A stretch of DNA of 64,000 bases from Chloroflexota bacterium (GTDB lineage: Bacteria; Chloroflexota; Dormibacteria; Dormibacterales; Dormibacteraceae), in contig VBGR01000048.1 of NCBI GenBank assembly GCA_005880695.1, positions 1 through 64,000 of the forward strand. The letters run 5' to 3'. The translations under genes and the position numbers were made by a program. This document shows positions 16,525 to 26,047 of this stretch, piece by piece; positions within the stretch are counted from its first letter, which is position 1, and each line of letters opens with the position of its first letter. Below the pieces are notes generated by a model. It searched no databases, had not been told where the DNA came from, and saw nothing but the letters and a program-made list of their open reading frames with translations.

Positions 16525-18015
<1,491 letters not shown>

Positions 18016-18036
18016 GCGGCTGTAGGCTTCCGTTCG

Positions 18037-18666
18037 ATGGCCGCCATCACGATCGGCCGCCAGTTCGGAGCCGGGGGCGAGAAGGTGGGCAGGGTGGTCG
18101 CCGACCGCCTCGGCTGGGAATACCTGGACAGCAACATCATCGACGAGGTCGCCCGCCGGCTCCGGCTCGGCCGCGACGTTGTCGAGGCCTATGACGAAAA
18201 GCGGGGCTCACTCCTCGACCGGCTCCTCCGCCAGCTCGCCACCGTCGACCTCTCGACGCCTCAGGACGTGGCGGCCTGGACGCCACCCTATTCGGATCCT
18301 GCCTTTGACCTGAGCCGGTCGGTGCTTCGGCTGACCCAAGAGGTCATCAAGCAGGCGGCGGAAGGCAACGCCGTGATCGTCGGGCGCGGCGGTGCCTACA
18401 TCCTGCGCGACCGCCCGGATGCGCTGAGCGTCTTCCTCCTGGCCGGCGAGGAGTTCCGGGTCCGGGAAGCCATGGCGTTGCTGCAGCGGGGTGAGCCAGA
18501 AGCTCGCAAGCTGCTCAAAGAGACCGACGCCAACCGAGCCGCCTACGTGAAGCAGGTCTACGGCCACGACTGGCTGAAACCGGGCCATTACGACCTGGTC
18601 GTGGACACCGGACGGCTCGGCCACGCGCGGGCGGTAGAGGCAATCCTGGCGGCGGCGCCTCGCTAG
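18037..18666 (+). CDS. Cytidylate kinase-like family protein
   Basis: A 209-residue P-loop protein of the Cytidylate_kin2 type. The N-terminal phosphate loop reads TIGRQFGAGGEKVG, close to the modified P-loop of this family, followed by LGWEYLDSNIIDEVA. A later GNAVIVGRGGAYIL strand and the DANRAAYVKQVYG lid segment are typical. The family is related to CMP kinase but the true substrate is not established. It starts 21 bases after rpoD and may be part of that transcript. Confidence 0.85.
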   Translation: MAAITIGRQFGAGGEKVGRVVADRLGWEYLDSNIIDEVARRLRLGRDVVEAYDEKRGSLLDRLLRQLATVDLSTPQDVAAWTPPYSDPAFDLSRSVLRLTQEVIKQAAEGNAVIVGRGGAYILRDRPDALSVFLLAGEEFRVREAMALLQRGEPEARKLLKETDANRAAYVKQVYGHDWLKPGHYDLVVDTGRLGHARAVEAILAAAPR

Positions 18667-18707
18667 AGGCGTTCCAGCCCGAAGCTGCCCGTTAACCTAA
18701 GCCGGAC

Positions 18708-18989
18708 GTGATCCTCAACTCCCGGACCTCGCACGTCGACGGGTCCAGCGAAGGCGGTCGCATCAACACCGAGAGCCAGGTCATCACGCTGGCGCTCTAC
18801 GGCGTCGCCCTGATGGACGCCGTTCGGGCGCGAGGCCACAAAGGCAAGCTCCGGGTTGAGCCGCGGCAAAAGGACGGGGAGTGGCTTCTGGTCGCGACCT
18901 ACGCAGACGAGAAACCAAAGTGGCTGCCGGAGCGCTGGCACGGACGAAAGGTCGTTGCTGAAAAGGAAGCCCCGCCGCCCAGTGCCTGA
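18708..18989 (+). CDS. Small hypothetical protein
   Basis: 93 residues from a GTG start. It is polar, with a conserved-looking centre (ESQVITLALYGVALMDAVRARGH) followed by GKLRVEPRQKDGEWLLVATY, then a Pro-rich end. No known family recognised. The next gene begins inside its last codons (8-base overlap), which supports it being a real gene in a pair. Confidence 0.55.
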   Translation: MILNSRTSHVDGSSEGGRINTESQVITLALYGVALMDAVRARGHKGKLRVEPRQKDGEWLLVATYADEKPKWLPERWHGRKVVAEKEAPPPSA

Positions 18990-19191
18990 GTATTCGCGCC
19001 ACTCCCGCATCGTCGACGTGGTCGATCGCCTGCCCCATGGTCGCGACGCTCTCTACAAGCATGGTTATCGCCTCGGGGACGGGTTCGTGGATGTCCTCTC
19101 CCAGTACGTGACGCTGGAGGAAGCCGCGCGAGAGGGCCGGCTGCGGGATCTTGAGGGCTTAATTAAAGAGCTCAATTCCTCCGTTCACTGA
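18982..19191 (+). CDS. Small DUF1858-like protein
   Basis: 69 residues from GTG 18982. The pattern IVDVVDRLPHGRDALYKHGY, then a TLEEAAREG segment and a helical end with LIKELN, matches the outline of DUF1858: a short helical domain ending in LxxLN that is often fused to or encoded near redox enzymes. The Cys pair found in many DUF1858 proteins is absent. The GTG overlaps the end of the preceding gene by 8 bases. Confidence 0.55.
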   Translation: MPEYSRHSRIVDVVDRLPHGRDALYKHGYRLGDGFVDVLSQYVTLEEAAREGRLRDLEGLIKELNSSVH

Positions 19192-19254
19192 TAGCCCTGC
19201 CGGAGTAGAATCCCGCCAGCCCGCATCCCTGTTCAGTAAAGGCCGGAGTTCACG

Positions 19255-19545
19255 TTGTCGAAAAGGAAGAAGTCGGGAGCGGAGTCCCCAGAGTGCGTCT
19301 GTGGACGCAAACGTTCTGACGCGGCTATCTACGTGCACCAGTCGTACAGCACCGTCTACGTCTACCACCGCTGCGAGTGTGGCAGCGAGTGGACGGAAAG
19401 CCGGAGCAAGGTCGACCGGAGCCAGCCGATCACGACGGACGAGGTACTCGAGGTCTACCAGCGCTTGGAGGCTTTCGAGGGCTCCCTTTCCGACCTGCTA
19501 CAACCGATCGCGGAGCAGAAGCCAGAGCCGAAGCCCGACAAGTAG
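19255..19545 (+). CDS. Small hypothetical protein with two CxC pairs
   Basis: 96 residues from a TTG start. A basic N-terminus is followed by CVC (residues 15-17) and CEC (41-43), spaced like a zinc ribbon, with YVYHRCECGSEW resembling a treble-clef knuckle. The C-terminal half is a predicted acidic helix (EVLEVYQRLEAFEGSLSDLLQ). No family recognised. The zinc-binding role is an inference from the cysteine spacing. Confidence 0.5.
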   Translation: MSKRKKSGAESPECVCGRKRSDAAIYVHQSYSTVYVYHRCECGSEWTESRSKVDRSQPITTDEVLEVYQRLEAFEGSLSDLLQPIAEQKPEPKPDK

Positions 19546-19560
19546 GCTGGCGCCGAGGCG

Positions 19561-21054
19561 TCAGCTGATGTCGAGGATGACGTTCTTCAGCTCGGTGTAA
19601 AGCTCGAGCGCGTACGGGCCGAGTTCGCGGCCCCAGCCGCTTTGCTTGTAGCCGCCCCATGGGTTGGCGGGGTCGGCGACGTTGTAACAGTTGACCCAGA
19701 CGGTCCCGGCGCGCAGCGCGTGGGCCACCCGGTGGGCGCGCTTTACGTCCTGGGTCCAGACCCCGGCGGCGAGGCCGTACATGCTCTCGTTCGCCTTGGC
19801 GACGAGCTCTTCCTCGCTGGCGAAGGGTATCGCCGCCAGGACTGGTCCGAAGATCTCCTCCTGAGCGATCCGCATCGTGCCTTTCACGTCGGCGAAGATC
19901 GTCGGCTTGACGAAGTAGCCGTTGGCGAGGTCGCCATCGGCGCGGGTGCCGCCAGTGACCAGCCGAGCGCCCTCCTCATTGCCGACTGTGATGTAGCCCA
20001 TGACGCGGTCGAGCTGCGCCTGCGAGACCAGCGGTCCCATCTGCGTCATGAAGTCGATGCCAGGGCCGAGCTGGATGTCGGCGGCGGTCTTGGTCAGCTC
20101 CTCGAGCGTCTGCTCGTAGACCTGCTCCTCGACGAAGAGGCGCGAGCCGGCGGTGCAGACCTCGCCCTGGTTCACGAAGATCCCCATGAAGGCGCCGCTG
20201 GCGGCGCTCTGCAGGTTGGCGTCGGCAAAGACGATGTTGGGCGACTTGCCGCCCAGCTCCAGGCTCACGCGCTTCAGGTTGCCGGTCGAGGCCTGGACGA
20301 TCTTCTTGCCCACCTCGGTGGAACCGGTGAAGGCGATCTTGTCGACGTCGGGGTGCTCGGCGAGCCGGGCTCCGGCGGTCTCGCCGAACCCGGGCACGAC
20401 GTTGAACACGCCGGCCGGAATCTCGGCCTCCTGGATGATCTCAGCGAGGAGAAGGGCCGAGAGGGGCGTCTCCTCGGCCGGCTTGAGGATCATGGAGTTC
20501 CCGCAAGCGAGGGCGGGGGCGACCTTCCAGGAGGCCATCATGAGCGGGAAGTTCCAGGGCACGATGGCGCCCACGACGCCGACCGGCTCGCGCAGCGTGT
20601 AGCTCAGGTAGCGGCCGGGGAAGGAGAGCTGGTGGGTCTCGCCCTGCAGCTTGGTCACCCAGCCCGCGTAGTAGCGGAAGGTGGCAGCCGCGATGGGGGC
20701 GTCGAAGAGGAGCGCCTCGTTGATCGGCTTGCCGTTGTCGAGGCTGTCGAGCTGGGCGAACTCAAGCACGCGCTCCTCGATGAGGTCGCCGACCTTCCAA
20801 AGCATCTTGGCGCGCTCGGAGGGTGGCAGGTCCTTCCAGACGCCGGCCTCGAAGGAGGCGCGAGCCGCCTTCACAGCGCGGTCGACGTCCTCCCGGTCGC
20901 CTTCGGCGACTTTGGCCAGGATCTCGCCCGTGGCGGGGTTGATCGAGTCGAAGGTCTTGCCGGACGCGGCCTCCACCCAGCGGCCGCCGATGAAGAGCTT
21001 CTTAGGCTGGTCTTTCAGGTAGCGGGCGATCTCGAGGTCTTCGGCGATGGCCAT
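19561..21054 (-). CDS. NAD(P)-dependent aldehyde dehydrogenase
   Basis: Oxidises an aldehyde to the acid. At 497 residues it is the standard ALDH size, with FIGGRWVEA at the N-terminus, PWNFPLMM, the nucleotide-binding FTGSTEVGKKI, the general base Glu266 in ELGGKSPN, the nucleophile Cys300 in GEVCTAG, and the C-terminal EEIFGPVL. It looks like a broad-range class 1/2-type enzyme; the substrate cannot be told. The ATG at 21054 fits the family start, whereas the frame upstream of it runs into the tRNA gene. It is convergent with the small gene at 19255. Confidence 0.93.
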   Translation of the reverse strand: MAIAEDLEIARYLKDQPKKLFIGGRWVEAASGKTFDSINPATGEILAKVAEGDREDVDRAVKAARASFEAGVWKDLPPSERAKMLWKVGDLIEERVLEFAQLDSLDNGKPINEALLFDAPIAAATFRYYAGWVTKLQGETHQLSFPGRYLSYTLREPVGVVGAIVPWNFPLMMASWKVAPALACGNSMILKPAEETPLSALLLAEIIQEAEIPAGVFNVVPGFGETAGARLAEHPDVDKIAFTGSTEVGKKIVQASTGNLKRVSLELGGKSPNIVFADANLQSAASGAFMGIFVNQGEVCTAGSRLFVEEQVYEQTLEELTKTAADIQLGPGIDFMTQMGPLVSQAQLDRVMGYITVGNEEGARLVTGGTRADGDLANGYFVKPTIFADVKGTMRIAQEEIFGPVLAAIPFASEEELVAKANESMYGLAAGVWTQDVKRAHRVAHALRAGTVWVNCYNVADPANPWGGYKQSGWGRELGPYALELYTELKNVILDIS

Positions 21055-21107
21055 GCCCCCAATGGTAGGGGCGCGAGGCGGCCCGGGTAGAATCGAGAGC
21101 TTGCCGC

Positions 21108-21182
21108 TCCGGAGTAGCTCAACGGTAGAGCAGGCGGCTGTTAACCGCAAGGTTCACGGTTCGAATCCGTGCTCCGGAGCCA
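21108..21182 (+). tRNA. tRNA-Asn (anticodon GTT)
   Basis: 75 bases including an encoded CCA. Acceptor arms TCCGGAG and CTCCGGA pair perfectly over 7 bp, with discriminator G. The D stem is GCTC/GAGC, the anticodon loop is CTGTTAA with GTT as anticodon, and the T arm is CACGG-TTCGAAT-CCGTG. The first pair of the anticodon stem (G27-A43) is mismatched. The 3' 38 bases are repeated at 24530-24567, marking this tRNA as an integration site. Confidence 0.96.
21145..21182 (+). repeat. Left attachment repeat (in tRNA-Asn)
   Basis: From the anticodon stem 3' arm (CCGC) to the CCA end of the tRNA. It is repeated with a single C-to-T change at 24530-24567. The tRNA copy is functional, as expected when the integrated element restores the tRNA 3' end. 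Confidence 0.85.
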
Positions 21183-21188
21183 AGCAAT

Positions 21189-21287
21189 TGTGCAGTTTGG
21201 GCTGAGGCGCGCCAAAAGGCCTTCGGCTGATGCACGACAGATCTTCGGTTGATGCGCGACACCTACTTCGGTTGAGCCGCGACACTC
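21189..21287 (+). repeat. Left end of IS481-type element with tandem subterminal repeats
   Basis: The end probably begins TGTGCAG at 21189, six bases after the tRNA. Four imperfect repeats of the form CTTCGGTTGATGCGCGACA follow, starting near 21196, 21221, 21243 and 21266, about 22-25 bases apart. Tandem copies of such a motif just upstream of the transposase are typical of IS481-type ends and are likely transposase binding sites. Confidence 0.65.
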
Positions 21288-21293
21288 CCGGCT

Positions 21294-22100
21294 GTGAGGG
21301 AATTGAGCGTGGCTGAGCAGAGGTACCAGGCGGTGCTGGCAGTGGTTGCCGAAGGAAGAACGGTGACCGAGGTGGCCGGGCGGTGGAGGGTGAACCCGTC
21401 AACGCTCCATAGGTGGCTGGCGCGCTACGAGCTGGAGGGCCTGGAGGGACTCGGCGACCGCTCCCACAGGCCCCAGAGCTGCCCCCACCAGATGCCCGCC
21501 GAGCTGCAGGCAGCGGTGCTCGAGCTACGCCGGCAGAGGTCCTATTGCGGCCCGCGGAGTCTGGTCCTGCAGCTGGCCAAGAAGGGGGTCGAGCCGCTGC
21601 CGTCGGAGTCAGCGGTATATCGCTGCCTGGTCCGAGCCGGCGTGGTCGAGCAGGCTCGTCGGCATCCTCGCCGGGACACCTGGAAGCGCTGGGAGCGGGG
21701 CCGGCCCATGGAGCTCTGGCAGGTCGTGCGAAGGTACGGCGTCCCCGAGCAGGTGCTGACCGACAACGGCAAGGTCTTCACCGGCCGCTACGCCCAGCCC
21801 CCAGTGGAGGTCTTATTCGACCGCATCGGCCGCGAGAACGGCATCGAGCACCTGCTCACCCAACCTCGGATGCCGACCACAACCGGGAAGGTCGAGCGCT
21901 TCCACCGCACGCTCCGGCTTGAGTTCGACACCGCCAAGGTCTTCAGGAACCTGCAACTGGCCCAGTCAGCGCTCGACGAGTGGGTGACCTACTACAACAC
22001 CGAACGGACCCACCAGTCGCTCGGCGACGTCGTCCGACTTACTTCAGTGGGTTCGGCGAAATCTGGACCAGTACGACTCTGCCTATCGCGACCTCGCTGA
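21294..22100 (+). pseudogene. IS481-family transposase with internal deletion and truncated end
   Basis: 268 codons. Residues 1-143 are the helix-turn-helix part and start of the family (EVAGRWRVNPSTLHRWL, SYCGPRSL, MELWQ). Full-length relatives continue after ELWQ with the strand carrying the first catalytic Asp and about 50 more residues; here ELWQ is joined directly to VVRRYGVPEQ, so that Asp is gone. The second Asp (LTDNGK, D157) and the Glu (GKVERFHR, E201) remain. After THQSLGD the sequence leaves the family, and the frame runs through an antitoxin-gene remnant. The deletion is in frame but the protein cannot catalyse DDE chemistry. Confidence 0.8.
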
Positions 22101-22107
22101 CAGGTGA
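22042..22107 (+). pseudogene. Remnant of antitoxin gene 3' end, cut by the IS element
   Basis: In a frame different from the transposase, the last codons read LLQWVRRNLDQYDSAYRDLADR and stop. This polar Arg/Asp/Tyr-rich helix looks like the C-terminus of a ribbon-helix-helix or AbrB-type antitoxin, the part that binds the toxin. Its TGA overlaps the GTG start of the Doc-like toxin (GTGA), the usual coupling of an antitoxin-toxin pair. The rest of the antitoxin gene is missing, replaced by IS481 sequence. Confidence 0.45.
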
Positions 22108-22505
22108 CCGCGCCAGCTGAAGCGCTGGTCAGCCTGGCCGAGTTGATGTTCATCCACACAGTCATGATCGATCGCTACGGTGGGCATATCGGCGTGCGTG
22201 ACGCTGGTCTGATCGAATCCGTGTTGGCTGCACCGCTGGCAAGCTTCGGGCGCGACCTTTACCCCAACCCATTCCTGCGAGCAGCAGTTCTTTGGCATGG
22301 CCTCATCAAGAACCACGGATTCGTCGATGCCAAAAAGAGAACGTCGACCATGGCCATGCAGAGATGGCTCCACCGCGAGGGGTTCGACCTGTTCGTGCCG
22401 CAGTCCGATCTGGTCGTCATGGCAGTCCGAATCGCGAACTCCGGGATTACGGTCGAGGAATTGGCCAACTGGCTCGAGGACAATGCCCAGCCGGTTGTGG
22501 GTTAA
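22104..22505 (+). CDS. doc: Doc-like toxin (Fic/Doc family), probably orphan
   Basis: 133 residues of the death-on-curing type. Doc toxins phosphorylate elongation factor Tu and stop translation. Family features: IGVRDAGLIESVLAAP near the N-terminus, then a central helix with HGLIKNHGFVDAKKRTST, the catalytic HxFxD motif with His71. The position after D-A, Asn in the well-studied P1 Doc, is Lys77 here. The C-terminus has the GITVEELANWL helix usual in Doc. The GTG start overlaps the stop of a truncated antitoxin remnant, so no complete partner gene is visible. Confidence 0.82.
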   Translation: MTAPAEALVSLAELMFIHTVMIDRYGGHIGVRDAGLIESVLAAPLASFGRDLYPNPFLRAAVLWHGLIKNHGFVDAKKRTSTMAMQRWLHREGFDLFVPQSDLVVMAVRIANSGITVEELANWLEDNAQPVVG

Positions 22506-22602
22506 CCGAGGACTGACGGAGCTGGCGCGCCGACCAAGCGGGCTAGCCGACGACATGCTCGCCGAGGCCGGCCGTGAGGCCTACGCTCGCTAGGCTTCCC
22601 GT

Positions 22603-23073
22603 ATGACTTCGGACGCGGTTCGGACCTTCAGGGCGCGCGCCGACGGCACGGCGTCGGGCGGCGCCGTGATCGATCTGCCTTTCGATCCCCGGAAAGCCTG
22701 GGGCGCCCGCCCTCGCTACCACGTCACTGGGACCGCCGACGGGATCTGTTTTCGGACCACGCTCGCGCAGCGCTGGGGTGCCTGGCGCATGGCGTTCGGA
22801 CCGAAGTCCTCGGCGTGTCGCCTCGCCGGTCGCGAGGCGGTTGACGTCGAAGTCTGGCTCGAAGGTCCGCAGGCCGACGACCTAGCGCCCGACATCGCCG
22901 AGGCGCTGGCGTCCCGGCCGGCGGCGCTCGCCGCATTCTCTGGACTGGCGACCTTCTATCGCAAAGGCTGGCTGCGTTGGATCGACGCCACCAAGCGCAG
23001 GCCGGAGGCTCGCTCTGCGCGGATCGCCGAGATGCTCGACCTGTTGGAGGCAGGCCAGAAACAGAACCGCTGA
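22603..23073 (+). CDS. YdeI/OmdA-type protein (DUF1905-like N-terminus)
   Basis: 156 residues. The first about 95 residues (GGAVIDLPFDPRKAWG, then PYHVTG-like, WRMAFGPKS) match the DUF1905 beta barrel, and the C-terminal helical part (LASRPAALAAFSGLATFYRKGWLRWIDATKRRPEARSAR split over two helices) matches the YdeI/OmpD-associated domain with its WIxxAKRxETR-like motif. Proteins of this kind are linked with bacteriocin or peptide tolerance, but the biochemical role is unknown. It is island cargo, 97 bases after doc; that gap holds no recognisable gene. Confidence 0.75.
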   Translation: MTSDAVRTFRARADGTASGGAVIDLPFDPRKAWGARPRYHVTGTADGICFRTTLAQRWGAWRMAFGPKSSACRLAGREAVDVEVWLEGPQADDLAPDIAEALASRPAALAAFSGLATFYRKGWLRWIDATKRRPEARSARIAEMLDLLEAGQKQNR

Positions 23074-24376: not shown

Positions 24377-24673
24377 ACCCGGGGGAGGCCGGAGGAACGG
24401 GCGCCCGCCTCCGCCTCCTCGAGGAACAAAGGCAAGGCGAGGGAGCGGCGAGGTATTTGCGGCATGGTCGACCCTGCGAGCCGTTCGGAAAAGCAGGGAG
24501 GCGAGGGAACGGCGGGACCGTCGGGGACGCCGCAAGGTTCATGGTTCGAATCCGTGCTCCGGAGCCACCTAATTCAATACCGGGTCGGCATCTTCGGACT
24601 AGCTGCTGGAAGACGTTATCGGCGGGGCTTGGTCACAGAATGGTCACAGGGCGGCCGGTCTGGCCATCCGCTC
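24377..24673. other. Gene-free stretch holding the right island boundary
   Basis: 297 bases without a convincing gene. It contains the 38-bp tRNA-Asn repeat (24530-24567), a direct repeat of TGGTCACA at 24630 and 24641 (11-base period), and on the minus strand a short frame ending PPCDHSVTKPRR at 24616 that resembles the extreme C-terminus of some tyrosine integrases. Two similar AGGCGAGGGA-containing segments at about 24430 and 24500 may be a local duplication. Confidence 0.5.
24530..24567 (+). repeat. Right attachment repeat (tRNA-Asn 3' fragment)
   Basis: 38 bases matching the tRNA-Asn 3' end including CCA, with one difference in the T stem (CATGG in place of CACGG). There is no 5' tRNA half before it, so it cannot form a tRNA. 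It marks the chromosomal side of the island. Confidence 0.85.
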
Positions 24674-25912
24674 TCAAAGACGGAGCGAGAGGATCCAGCG
24701 AAGTGCGCCCGCCAGCGCGACCTGGAACCAGCCTGACGACCGCTGCGTCCTCGGCGCGGGCGCTTTCGGGGCGGGGTGCTCGACTGCCCACGGGATCGCC
24801 TTCTTTTCCACCGGCTGCGCACTGTGGTTGCTGTCTGCGCCGTGGATCGGGGGCCCCACCTCCGTCCCGAACACGGGCGCCACTGCCACGCCGGCCGCGC
24901 CGGCCAGCGGCTGCACGGAACGCGCCATCGCCTGGCTGACGACCTGGATCATCTCCGGCCAGGGACAGCTGAAGTCGGAGGCTGCGCCGCAGGCGTAGAG
25001 GCCGTAGTCACCGTTGCCCTCGCGCATTACGAAGTGCGTCCAGTGCACCCCGTCACGCGCGTAGCGCAGCATCTGCGCCGCCACCCAGGCTGGCGCGTCG
25101 GCGCTTTTCGGTTGCGCGCCGAACTCTCCCACCCAGAGCGGCACCTGGCCCGACCAGGAGGGCGGGTAATTGTTGCCTTCCTGGTAGTGGTGGACCGACC
25201 AGACCATGTTCGCTCCGCTGACCGCGGGCACGTCCCATCCGGCGGAGGAGATCTCCACGGCGACGAAGTGGTTGGGATCGACCGCGAGGATGGTGTCGTG
25301 CAGGCGCTGTGCGAGCTGCTGCCACTCACCCTGCGAGGGTGGGGCGGGCTCGTTGAAAAGGTCGTAGCCGGCCACGGCCGGCTCCCCCGCGAAATGGGCC
25401 GCGATCGACCGCCAGGCGGTGTTGAGCGCGTCCTGGTTGTGTTGCGCGGAGCCGCAGTCGCTCCAAATGCAGTAACCCTTGCCGGCTGACTGATCGTAGC
25501 CGCCGGAGCTGCCGCCCGGCGGGATCATCATCGTGACGATCAACCAGAGCCTGTGGGCCCGCGCCCAGGCGACATGCTGATCGGCGACCGCGAAGAACCG
25601 CGTCCGGTCGCTCGCCCACCAGGCGTAATCCATGCTCCAGCGGATCACGTTGCCGCCCCAGGCCTGGACCTTGGCGTAGTCGCTCTCGCCGTAGTTGATC
25701 GCCCCGATGTCCGGTCCGCCGCAACAGCTCAGCGCGGGCTCGTTGTTGAAGTCCTCTCCACGCAAAACGACTGTCTGGCCCGCGTAGGTGAAGTTACGGC
25801 CGCTGACCTGCAAGTAGCTCCCTGCCGCGGCCGAGCTGACCGCTGGGGGCGCCAGCCAGAGTGCGCTGGCAAGGGCCATGGCCGCCAGTCCGAACCTGTG
25901 ACTCGGGCGCAT
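24674..25912 (-). CDS. Secreted glycoside hydrolase family 5 (cellulase-type) protein
   Basis: 412 residues. The signal peptide ends near VSSAAA. A TIM-barrel GH5 layout follows: FTYAGQTVVLRGEDFNN at the first strand, RWSMDYAWW, the acid/base Glu in YDLFNEPAP, VHHYQEGN, and the nucleophile Glu in LWVGEFGAQ. Likely acts outside the cell on a beta-glucan, mannan or similar; substrate unknown. Four Cys near CCGG and CIWSDC may form disulfides. After residue about 340 comes a low-complexity linker and a Trp/Leu-rich tail that may contact the membrane. The gene ends about 107 bases from the right island repeat. Confidence 0.85.
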   Translation of the reverse strand: MRPSHRFGLAAMALASALWLAPPAVSSAAAGSYLQVSGRNFTYAGQTVVLRGEDFNNEPALSCCGGPDIGAINYGESDYAKVQAWGGNVIRWSMDYAWWASDRTRFFAVADQHVAWARAHRLWLIVTMMIPPGGSSGGYDQSAGKGYCIWSDCGSAQHNQDALNTAWRSIAAHFAGEPAVAGYDLFNEPAPPSQGEWQQLAQRLHDTILAVDPNHFVAVEISSAGWDVPAVSGANMVWSVHHYQEGNNYPPSWSGQVPLWVGEFGAQPKSADAPAWVAAQMLRYARDGVHWTHFVMREGNGDYGLYACGAASDFSCPWPEMIQVVSQAMARSVQPLAGAAGVAVAPVFGTEVGPPIHGADSNHSAQPVEKKAIPWAVEHPAPKAPAPRTQRSSGWFQVALAGALRWILSLRL

Positions 25913-25966
25913 GAGCGAACCGCGCCACCGTGAGAGCTCCGGTCAGGGCGCGCGGCGGCGCCCCGG

Positions 25967-26047
25967 TTAGGTTTTGGTAAAGATTCGGCGGCGGCCGATT
26001 GAGAAGACGAGCCCGCCCAGGAGGATCAGCAGGCCGCAGGGCTCAGT
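25967..26047 (-). pseudogene. Relic of a C-terminal surface-anchor segment
   Basis: A short minus-strand frame reads PPQTEPCGLLILLGG then LVFSIGRRRIFTKT and stops. The order of an LPxTG-like PPQTE, a hydrophobic helix and a triple Arg end is the layout of a sortase sorting signal. It overlaps the end of the upstream membrane-protein gene in another frame and has no start of its own, so it would be the leftover tail of a lost surface protein or a frameshifted extension. Low confidence. Confidence 0.3.

Follow-up and report, generated by a model that had tools for sequence, protein, structure and literature searches.

A tRNA-docked IS481 element, probably joined by deletion to an antitoxin remnant, beside an orphan Doc-like toxin gene that is probably inactive

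Results

The tRNA-Asn locus

The window analyzed here is a stretch of 64,000 nucleotides on contig C23 of a Dormibacteraceae draft genome (2.82 Mb, 111 contigs, 94% complete). It contains a tRNA-Asn gene followed by an incomplete IS481-family element, a short antitoxin-like reading frame, and a gene for a Doc-like protein. The coordinates of these features are given in Table 1.

Table 1. Features of the tRNA-Asn locus in the window
Feature	Position	Strand	Basis or remark
Intact tRNA-Asn gene (gtt), at which the IS481 element and the apparent integrated island are docked	21108..21182	+	ARAGORN; sister genome G001
Spacer from tRNA CCA end to IS left terminus, 6 bp	21183..21188		5-8 bp at this place in relatives' copies
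IS481 left end, starts TGTGCA	21189..21293	+	blastn to relatives' left ends
Truncated IS481 transposase gene, residues 1-144 and 193-293 of ~391	21294..22028	+	alignment; NCBIfam IS481 model
Deletion junction, transposase interior to probable antitoxin interior	22028..22033		homology stops on both sides (draft assembly)
Probable MazE/AbrB-like antitoxin remnant: stop codon and the ~24 codons before it	22030..22107	+	rank 1 of 1256 21-mers; intact genes in L002-L005, L078, and L079
Orphan Doc-like gene (133 aa) with HGFVDAKKR in place of the motif HxFx(D/N)(A/G)NKR	22104..22505	+	PF02661, TIGR01550, motif comparison
Copy of the tRNA-Asn 3' half, 38 bp (37/38 identical), attR-like; right edge of the apparent island, which is absent in G001	24530..24567	+	G001 comparison

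The sister genome G001 carries the same tRNA-Asn gene beside the same aldehyde dehydrogenase gene, with neither the IS nor the Doc-like gene behind it. DNA identity between the two genomes is 91.5% over window positions 18001-21182, and beyond the tRNA homology returns only from 26039. This gap and the 38-bp tRNA-Asn 3'-half copy suggest that the IS and the Doc-like gene, together with a YdeI/OmdA-like and a SnoaL-like gene, are carried on a tRNA-Asn island of ~3.4 kb, an ordinary setting for a toxin-antitoxin pair. No match to an integrase besides the IS481 transposase was found in the subset of island ORFs scanned.

Just past the island edge lies a gene for a glycosyl hydrolase of family 5 (cellulase, PF00150; 24674-25912, minus strand), and the stretch that holds it (24568-26038) has no homology to the tRNA-Asn region of G001. 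By eye, a common stretch bearing TTTCTGAACGG precedes the tRNA-Asn 3' halves at L060/L121, L107/L137, L154, and L155; these halves may mark the right-hand borders of a set of related tRNA-Asn islands.

The IS481 copy and the junction

The transposase encoded in the window is 66% identical to that of a complete relative copy, L055. An in-frame deletion after 21725 has removed 48 residues, and with them the first catalytic aspartate; TDNGK and GKVERFH are present. Here we assume that these residues correspond to the DDE triad. The truncated protein scores 214.5 bits against the NCBIfam IS481 model (NF033577), below the cut-off of 224, as does another truncated copy of the same group (L182), and copies L159, L162, and L172 of that group exceed the cut-off. 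Since the transposase lacks 48 residues including the first catalytic aspartate, the IS is predicted to be dead.

Homology to IS481 in the transposase frame stops at codon 245, in HQSLGD (22026-22028), which corresponds to residue 293 of the relatives, and in blastn comparisons with eight relatives the matches break off at points between 22001 and 22031. Past this break the frame runs on through unrelated residues to a TGA at 22098-22100, 3 nt before the GTG of the Doc-like gene. The relatives start with TGT (in one case TGC) and end with ACA or ATA; the window retains the TGT left end, and the right end, comprising ~98 codons and the terminal repeat, has been deleted.

A classical IS-adjacent deletion starts at an IS end. 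This type of event was rejected for the window, where the junction lies inside the transposase gene and not at an IS end. The 15-bp sequence at the IS left end was also searched for elsewhere, as a possible trace of a lost target duplication; besides its own position it gave four matches at three mismatches, which is chance level, and one of these falls in the attR-like copy (24559-24573).

The probable antitoxin remnant

A second frame open from 22030 reads SSDLLQWVRRNLDQYDSAYRDLADR up to its stop codon, and this TGA (22105-22107) overlaps the GTG start of the Doc-like gene (22104-22106) by GTGA. The last 21 residues of this frame were scored against the C-termini of five antitoxins encoded just ahead of related Doc genes, giving a mean BLOSUM62 score of 18.2. 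Among the 1256 stop-anchored 21-mers on both strands of the window, the remnant included (mean -6.6, S.D. 4.9), this score ranks first and is reached by the remnant alone, the next best being 8.0. When the letters of the remnant were shuffled 20,000 times, one shuffle reached the mean score and 77 reached the best score with a single relative. The tails ARFTERYREDLAELADL, DRAMRRYRRAWQELAQR, and ARFTDRYREALSRLAEL of the relatives' antitoxins are similar to RRNLDQYDSAYRDLADR in the window, the identity to any single relative being 24-28%. A search of Pfam and NCBIfam with the 25-residue remnant gave no match. Frame, place, the stop beside the toxin start, and the score jointly argue that the frame is very probably the tail of an antitoxin.

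In the closest relatives of the Doc-like gene an intact gene of ~76 codons ends at the Doc start. Its products look MazE/AbrB-like. Among five of the relatives' antitoxins scanned, PF04014 (MazE) was above its cut-off in one (L079) and below it in four (E 0.0003-0.012); for L078 the MazE model ranked second, behind an unrelated model that was likewise below cut-off. The window holds no complete antitoxin gene next to the Doc-like gene: the ~24-codon remnant has the relative-like C-terminal tail that ends at the toxin start and lacks the N-terminal DNA-binding MazE domain (PF04014). A profile built from four intact antitoxins of relatives found three weak matches in the host genome, the best at E 0.02 and none convincing, with the proviso that an antitoxin acting in trans could be missing from an assembly in 111 contigs that is 94% complete.

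A sequence-only reading of the window had claimed that the IS481 frame ends out of register, that another frame at the same place gives an antitoxin-like C terminus overlapping the Doc GTG by GTGA, and that the Doc-like toxin is an orphan. These claims stand, the last for the locus itself. That reading had also proposed searches for the intact antitoxin in relatives and for a distant antitoxin in the host; the former found the ~76-codon gene, and the latter found nothing convincing.

The orphan Doc-like gene

The product of the Doc-like gene matches PF02661 (Fic/Doc) with 49.7 bits (cut-off 24) and TIGR01550 with 55.9 bits (cut-off 38.65). A profile of the protein and its relatives matches the solved Doc structures 9vzc (E 8e-15) and 3dd7 (E 6e-13); we take PDB 3dd7 and 3k33 to be Doc of phage P1 origin. 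A Doc scan of genome contigs detected no relative, and relatives were taken from whole-genome searches. The closest relatives found (L002, L003, L004, and L005) are 43-46% identical and all belong to the same taxonomic family.

The Doc consensus is given as HxFx(D/N)(A/G)NKR in passages of PMC4177925 and PMC4257102. The window departs from it by an asparagine-to-lysine substitution, with HGFVDAKKRT where L002-L005 have HGFVDGNKRT or YGFVDCNKRT. NKR was present in 30 of the 30 Doc relatives examined (L002, L003, L004, L063, and L078-L103; E 1e-20 or better and locus fetched, with five further matches left out), and KKR was seen in the window alone. The substitution most likely disables the enzyme. 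Because lysine stands where all 30 relatives have the asparagine of the catalytic motif, the toxin is probably inactive.

Weaker matches of the same search than L002-L005 include L006, L010, and L013, from three genomes of the class. These Doc-like genes (minus strand) are distant in sequence, have open frames with no HxFx..NKR motif at all, and follow a small, similar-looking upstream ORF. They may represent catalytically dead Doc proteins that have been retained as a family.

The sequence-only reading had suggested that the IS promoter could now drive the toxin gene; a scan of 21000-22700 for sigma-70-type promoters, the one promoter type that it covers, gave no promoter-like site. A tRNA was present at one of the six searched loci with related Doc genes, so the toxin-antitoxin pair as such shows no apparent link to tRNA genes.

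The IS481 group at tRNA genes

A search for intact copies found IS481 matches of this kind in 14 of 42 genomes of the same family. The family set provides 17 left ends, the window included, of which 11 lie behind a whole tRNA gene (Asn, Lys, Phe, Gln, Thr, Arg, or Ile), 4 behind the 3' half of tRNA-Asn or tRNA-Lys, and 2 behind another IS copy. A scan of the transposase alignment against 84,980 species genomes gave 42 loci (L115-L156), on contigs partly shared with the family set. The hosts are Chloroflexi/Dormiibacterota metagenome-assembled genomes and Actinomycetota, among them Ornithinimicrobium, Intrasporangium, Cellulomonas, Kribbella, and Nocardioides.

The left end was readable at 39 of these 42 loci, L120 (rearranged) and L123 and L146 (contig edges) being left out. 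A whole tRNA gene lies 6-10 bp before the IS end at 29 of the 39, and a tRNA 3' half at a further 7; L154 and L155 have an identical flank and may represent one event. The three left ends without a tRNA are those of L126, which may sit behind another IS, L135, and L150. ARAGORN detected just three other tRNAs in the 129,752 bases around the scanned loci.

The spacing is narrow. Measured from the T-loop motif of the tRNA, the IS starts after 29-33 bp in 36 of the 39 cases, or 37 of 40 with the window, and the distance is 31 bp in 21 and 32 bp in 11 of the 40. It holds with or without an encoded CCA and with or without the tRNA 5' half. In the window the IS starts 31 bp after the T-loop GTTCRA, within the range of the group. 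That the T-arm is the ruler for insertion, as it seems to be, we only infer, because the T-arm of every tRNA is nearly equidistant from its 3' end.

A direct repeat of ~16 bp containing the tRNA 3' end was found in 9 of 20 elements examined; several of the 11 elements without it have no right end on their contig. In complete copies a single transposase gene of ~391 codons fills roughly 1.35 kb between the ends. A search of plasmids with a complete transposase returned four records, all partial matches with 51-53% identity.

A second IS481 clade

As a control, 20 genomes were searched with the IS481 model; of the 29 loci obtained, 4 belong to the group described above, 7 to a second clade, and 18 to neither. 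The second clade (~405-aa transposases, tree support 100/100) had to be rejected as a control for tRNA homing because it, too, is found at tRNAs. At five of its seven loci a whole tRNA gene (Ala, Ala, Tyr, Ser, and Lys) faces the right end of the element at a distance of a few bp, at one a tRNA 3' half occupies that place, and the seventh stops at a contig edge. The orientation at the six tRNA-adjacent loci (L166, L168, L173, L175, L176, and L181) is opposite to that of the first group.

The remaining 18 loci encode mostly shorter transposases (~290-370 aa), and 16 of them have no tRNA within 400 bp of available sequence, some reaching contig edges. The two at tRNAs are L164, which follows an apparent relic of a second-clade end, and L179. 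The first group falls in one branch of 22 rows in the tree (support 100/99). L112 and L113 fall in this branch as well, with no tRNA in the available sequence, so homing may have arisen or been lost inside the branch.

Discussion

Origin of the fused locus

Our main reading, to which we give a probability of about 80%, is that a deletion fused a tRNA-docked IS481 element to an antitoxin gene tail and thereby orphaned a toxin that is probably dead. An element of the tRNA-homing group would have docked 6 bp behind tRNA-Asn, the place where it is found today; its homing is suggested by its relatives. Downstream in the same island there would have been a MazE/AbrB-like antitoxin gene followed by the Doc gene, stop and start overlapping or abutting as in the intact pairs of relatives. 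A deletion, to which the break in homology attests, would then have taken approximately the rightmost quarter of the IS together with the first two thirds of the antitoxin gene and joined what was left in a new frame, so that codon 245 of the broken transposase is followed by the last ~24 antitoxin codons; the order of events and the mechanism are those we infer. The transposase has also dropped 48 residues, a loss that would have silenced the element. The toxin has kept its frame and family signature with lysine in place of the conserved motif asparagine, and the cell most likely survives the loss of the antitoxin because the toxin no longer works. Decay of the toxin may have preceded or followed that loss.

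Some observations fit this account less well. The remnant is short. No stop interrupts the 133 codons of the Doc-like gene, and the transposase stays in frame across its deletion, so decay would have to be recent or slowed, and the intact Doc frame could mean that the gene still does something. The motif-less genes L006, L010, and L013 likewise have open frames.

The sequence-only reading had an IS481 insertion replace the antitoxin gene. The gene is indeed gone save for its ~24 C-terminal codons, and the direct joining of IS and remnant at 22028-22033 is what an insertion into the antitoxin gene with later loss of the IS right end could leave. Such an insertion would, however, require the 5' part of the antitoxin gene to the left of the IS, where the 6-bp gap to tRNA-Asn leaves no antitoxin part, and the left end lies at the usual docking distance of its group. 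With the right end missing and the junction inside the transposase gene, we consider insertion a very improbable cause. Even less credible is a chance open frame at 22030-22107 in place of an antitoxin tail. Its shortness, the absence of a Pfam or NCBIfam match, and the 77 shuffles that equal its best single-relative score would suit a chance frame, but it stands first among the 1256 21-mers by a gap of 10 points and occupies the right frame and the right place at the toxin start, like the intact pairs.

The main reading of a probably dead toxin also has to be weighed against a Doc-like protein that still functions, tolerated through low expression or a cross-acting antitoxin or recruited to a new non-toxic role. 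Its open frame of 133 codons and a family signature well above the curated cut-offs would be expected of such a protein, the fused transposase stop 3 nt ahead of the GTG makes coupled translation possible, and motif-less open Doc-like genes do exist in the class. Against this, the position of the lysine is asparagine in every relative examined, the host has no convincing antitoxin in trans, and no sigma-70 promoter-like site was detected; we regard a functional toxin as unlikely. The earlier suggestion that the toxin is inactive, poorly expressed, or controlled otherwise is thereby narrowed: the lysine in the catalytic motif favors the first of these and makes the other two less likely. The locus is a clear case of the death of a toxin-antitoxin pair, in which the toxin motif and the antitoxin have both been lost at one place.

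Proposed tRNA homing by a single transposase

As first described, the locus is an ordinary case of decay, and the surrounding IS biology is more surprising; tRNA homing could matter more than the decay of the toxin. We lean toward the view that the two clades of IS481-family transposases (~390-413 aa) are single-gene tRNA-homing transposons. They would read the T-arm in DNA, whatever the amino acid of the tRNA, and insert ~31-32 bp past the start of the T-loop motif, directly after the tRNA 3' end, in a fixed orientation (the left end toward the tRNA in one clade and the right end in the other), leaving the tRNA intact; a tRNA 3' half that an integrated island has left behind would suffice. 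If true, this would be safe-site targeting by one protein in bacteria, with no TniQ, TnsC, or guide RNA. A single transposase that finds many different tRNA genes harmlessly would offer a compact model of safe-site insertion and might serve as a tool for it, and its homing would be one more reason why mobile DNA clusters at tRNA genes, as is well known. Yeast and Dictyostelium have tRNA-targeting retroelements, of which single-gene tRNA-homing transposons would be the bacterial counterpart.

Comparison with known systems

By sequence (TIGR01550; E 6e-13 to 3dd7) the Doc-like protein belongs to the Doc family, and the window's relatives share with phd-doc and other Doc-type pairs a small antitoxin gene that lies upstream and runs up to the start of the toxin gene. 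The closest relatives differ from phd-doc in their partner, which looks MazE/AbrB-like rather than Phd, and the window differs from Doc-type pairs in having a ~24-codon remnant of the partner and a lysine for the motif asparagine.

The elements resemble the IS481 family in the transposase match (NF033577) and the TGT terminus. Target duplications of ~15 bp are known for some IS481 members, according to passages of PMC10045372. The group described here differs in its left end at a fixed distance behind tRNA T-arms and its ~390-aa transposase. No description of tRNA-homing IS481 elements was found in searches of the open-access literature, including passages of PMC9569102.

The closest parallels in targeting are the "dif site hunters" of the ISAjo2 group (IS1202 family), single-transposase elements at a fixed dif site. 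In passages of PMC10132070 the authors call single-site targeting relatively uncommon and report no target for long-duplication members of the same family. As described there, the ISAjo2 elements are like the present group in having a single transposase, TGT/ACA ends, one orientation, and a constant position only a few bp away from a conserved site. Their targets are Xer dif sites and their duplications 5 bp long, whereas the present group uses tRNA 3' ends and has ~16-bp repeats in 9 of 20 elements. Judged by flank and repeats, the present elements do not fit an insertion 5 bp from a Xer dif site with a 5-bp duplication; a tRNA is in that place.

Passages of PMC11406308 describe Tn7-like and CAST elements that target tRNA sites by means of extra proteins or a guide RNA. 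They share with the present group DDE transposition beside diverse tRNA genes and TGT/ACA ends; they depend on TniQ/TnsD proteins or guide RNA for targeting, whereas the complete copies described here have one transposase gene only.

By eye, a CTTCGGTTGATGCGCGACA-like or CTTCGGCTGATGNGTCACA-like unit recurs at intervals, three to four times, in the left ends of the IS481 elements, for example at 21189-21293 in the window and at 899-1003 in L055. These repeat units are reminiscent of the multiple TnsB sites in Tn7 ends.
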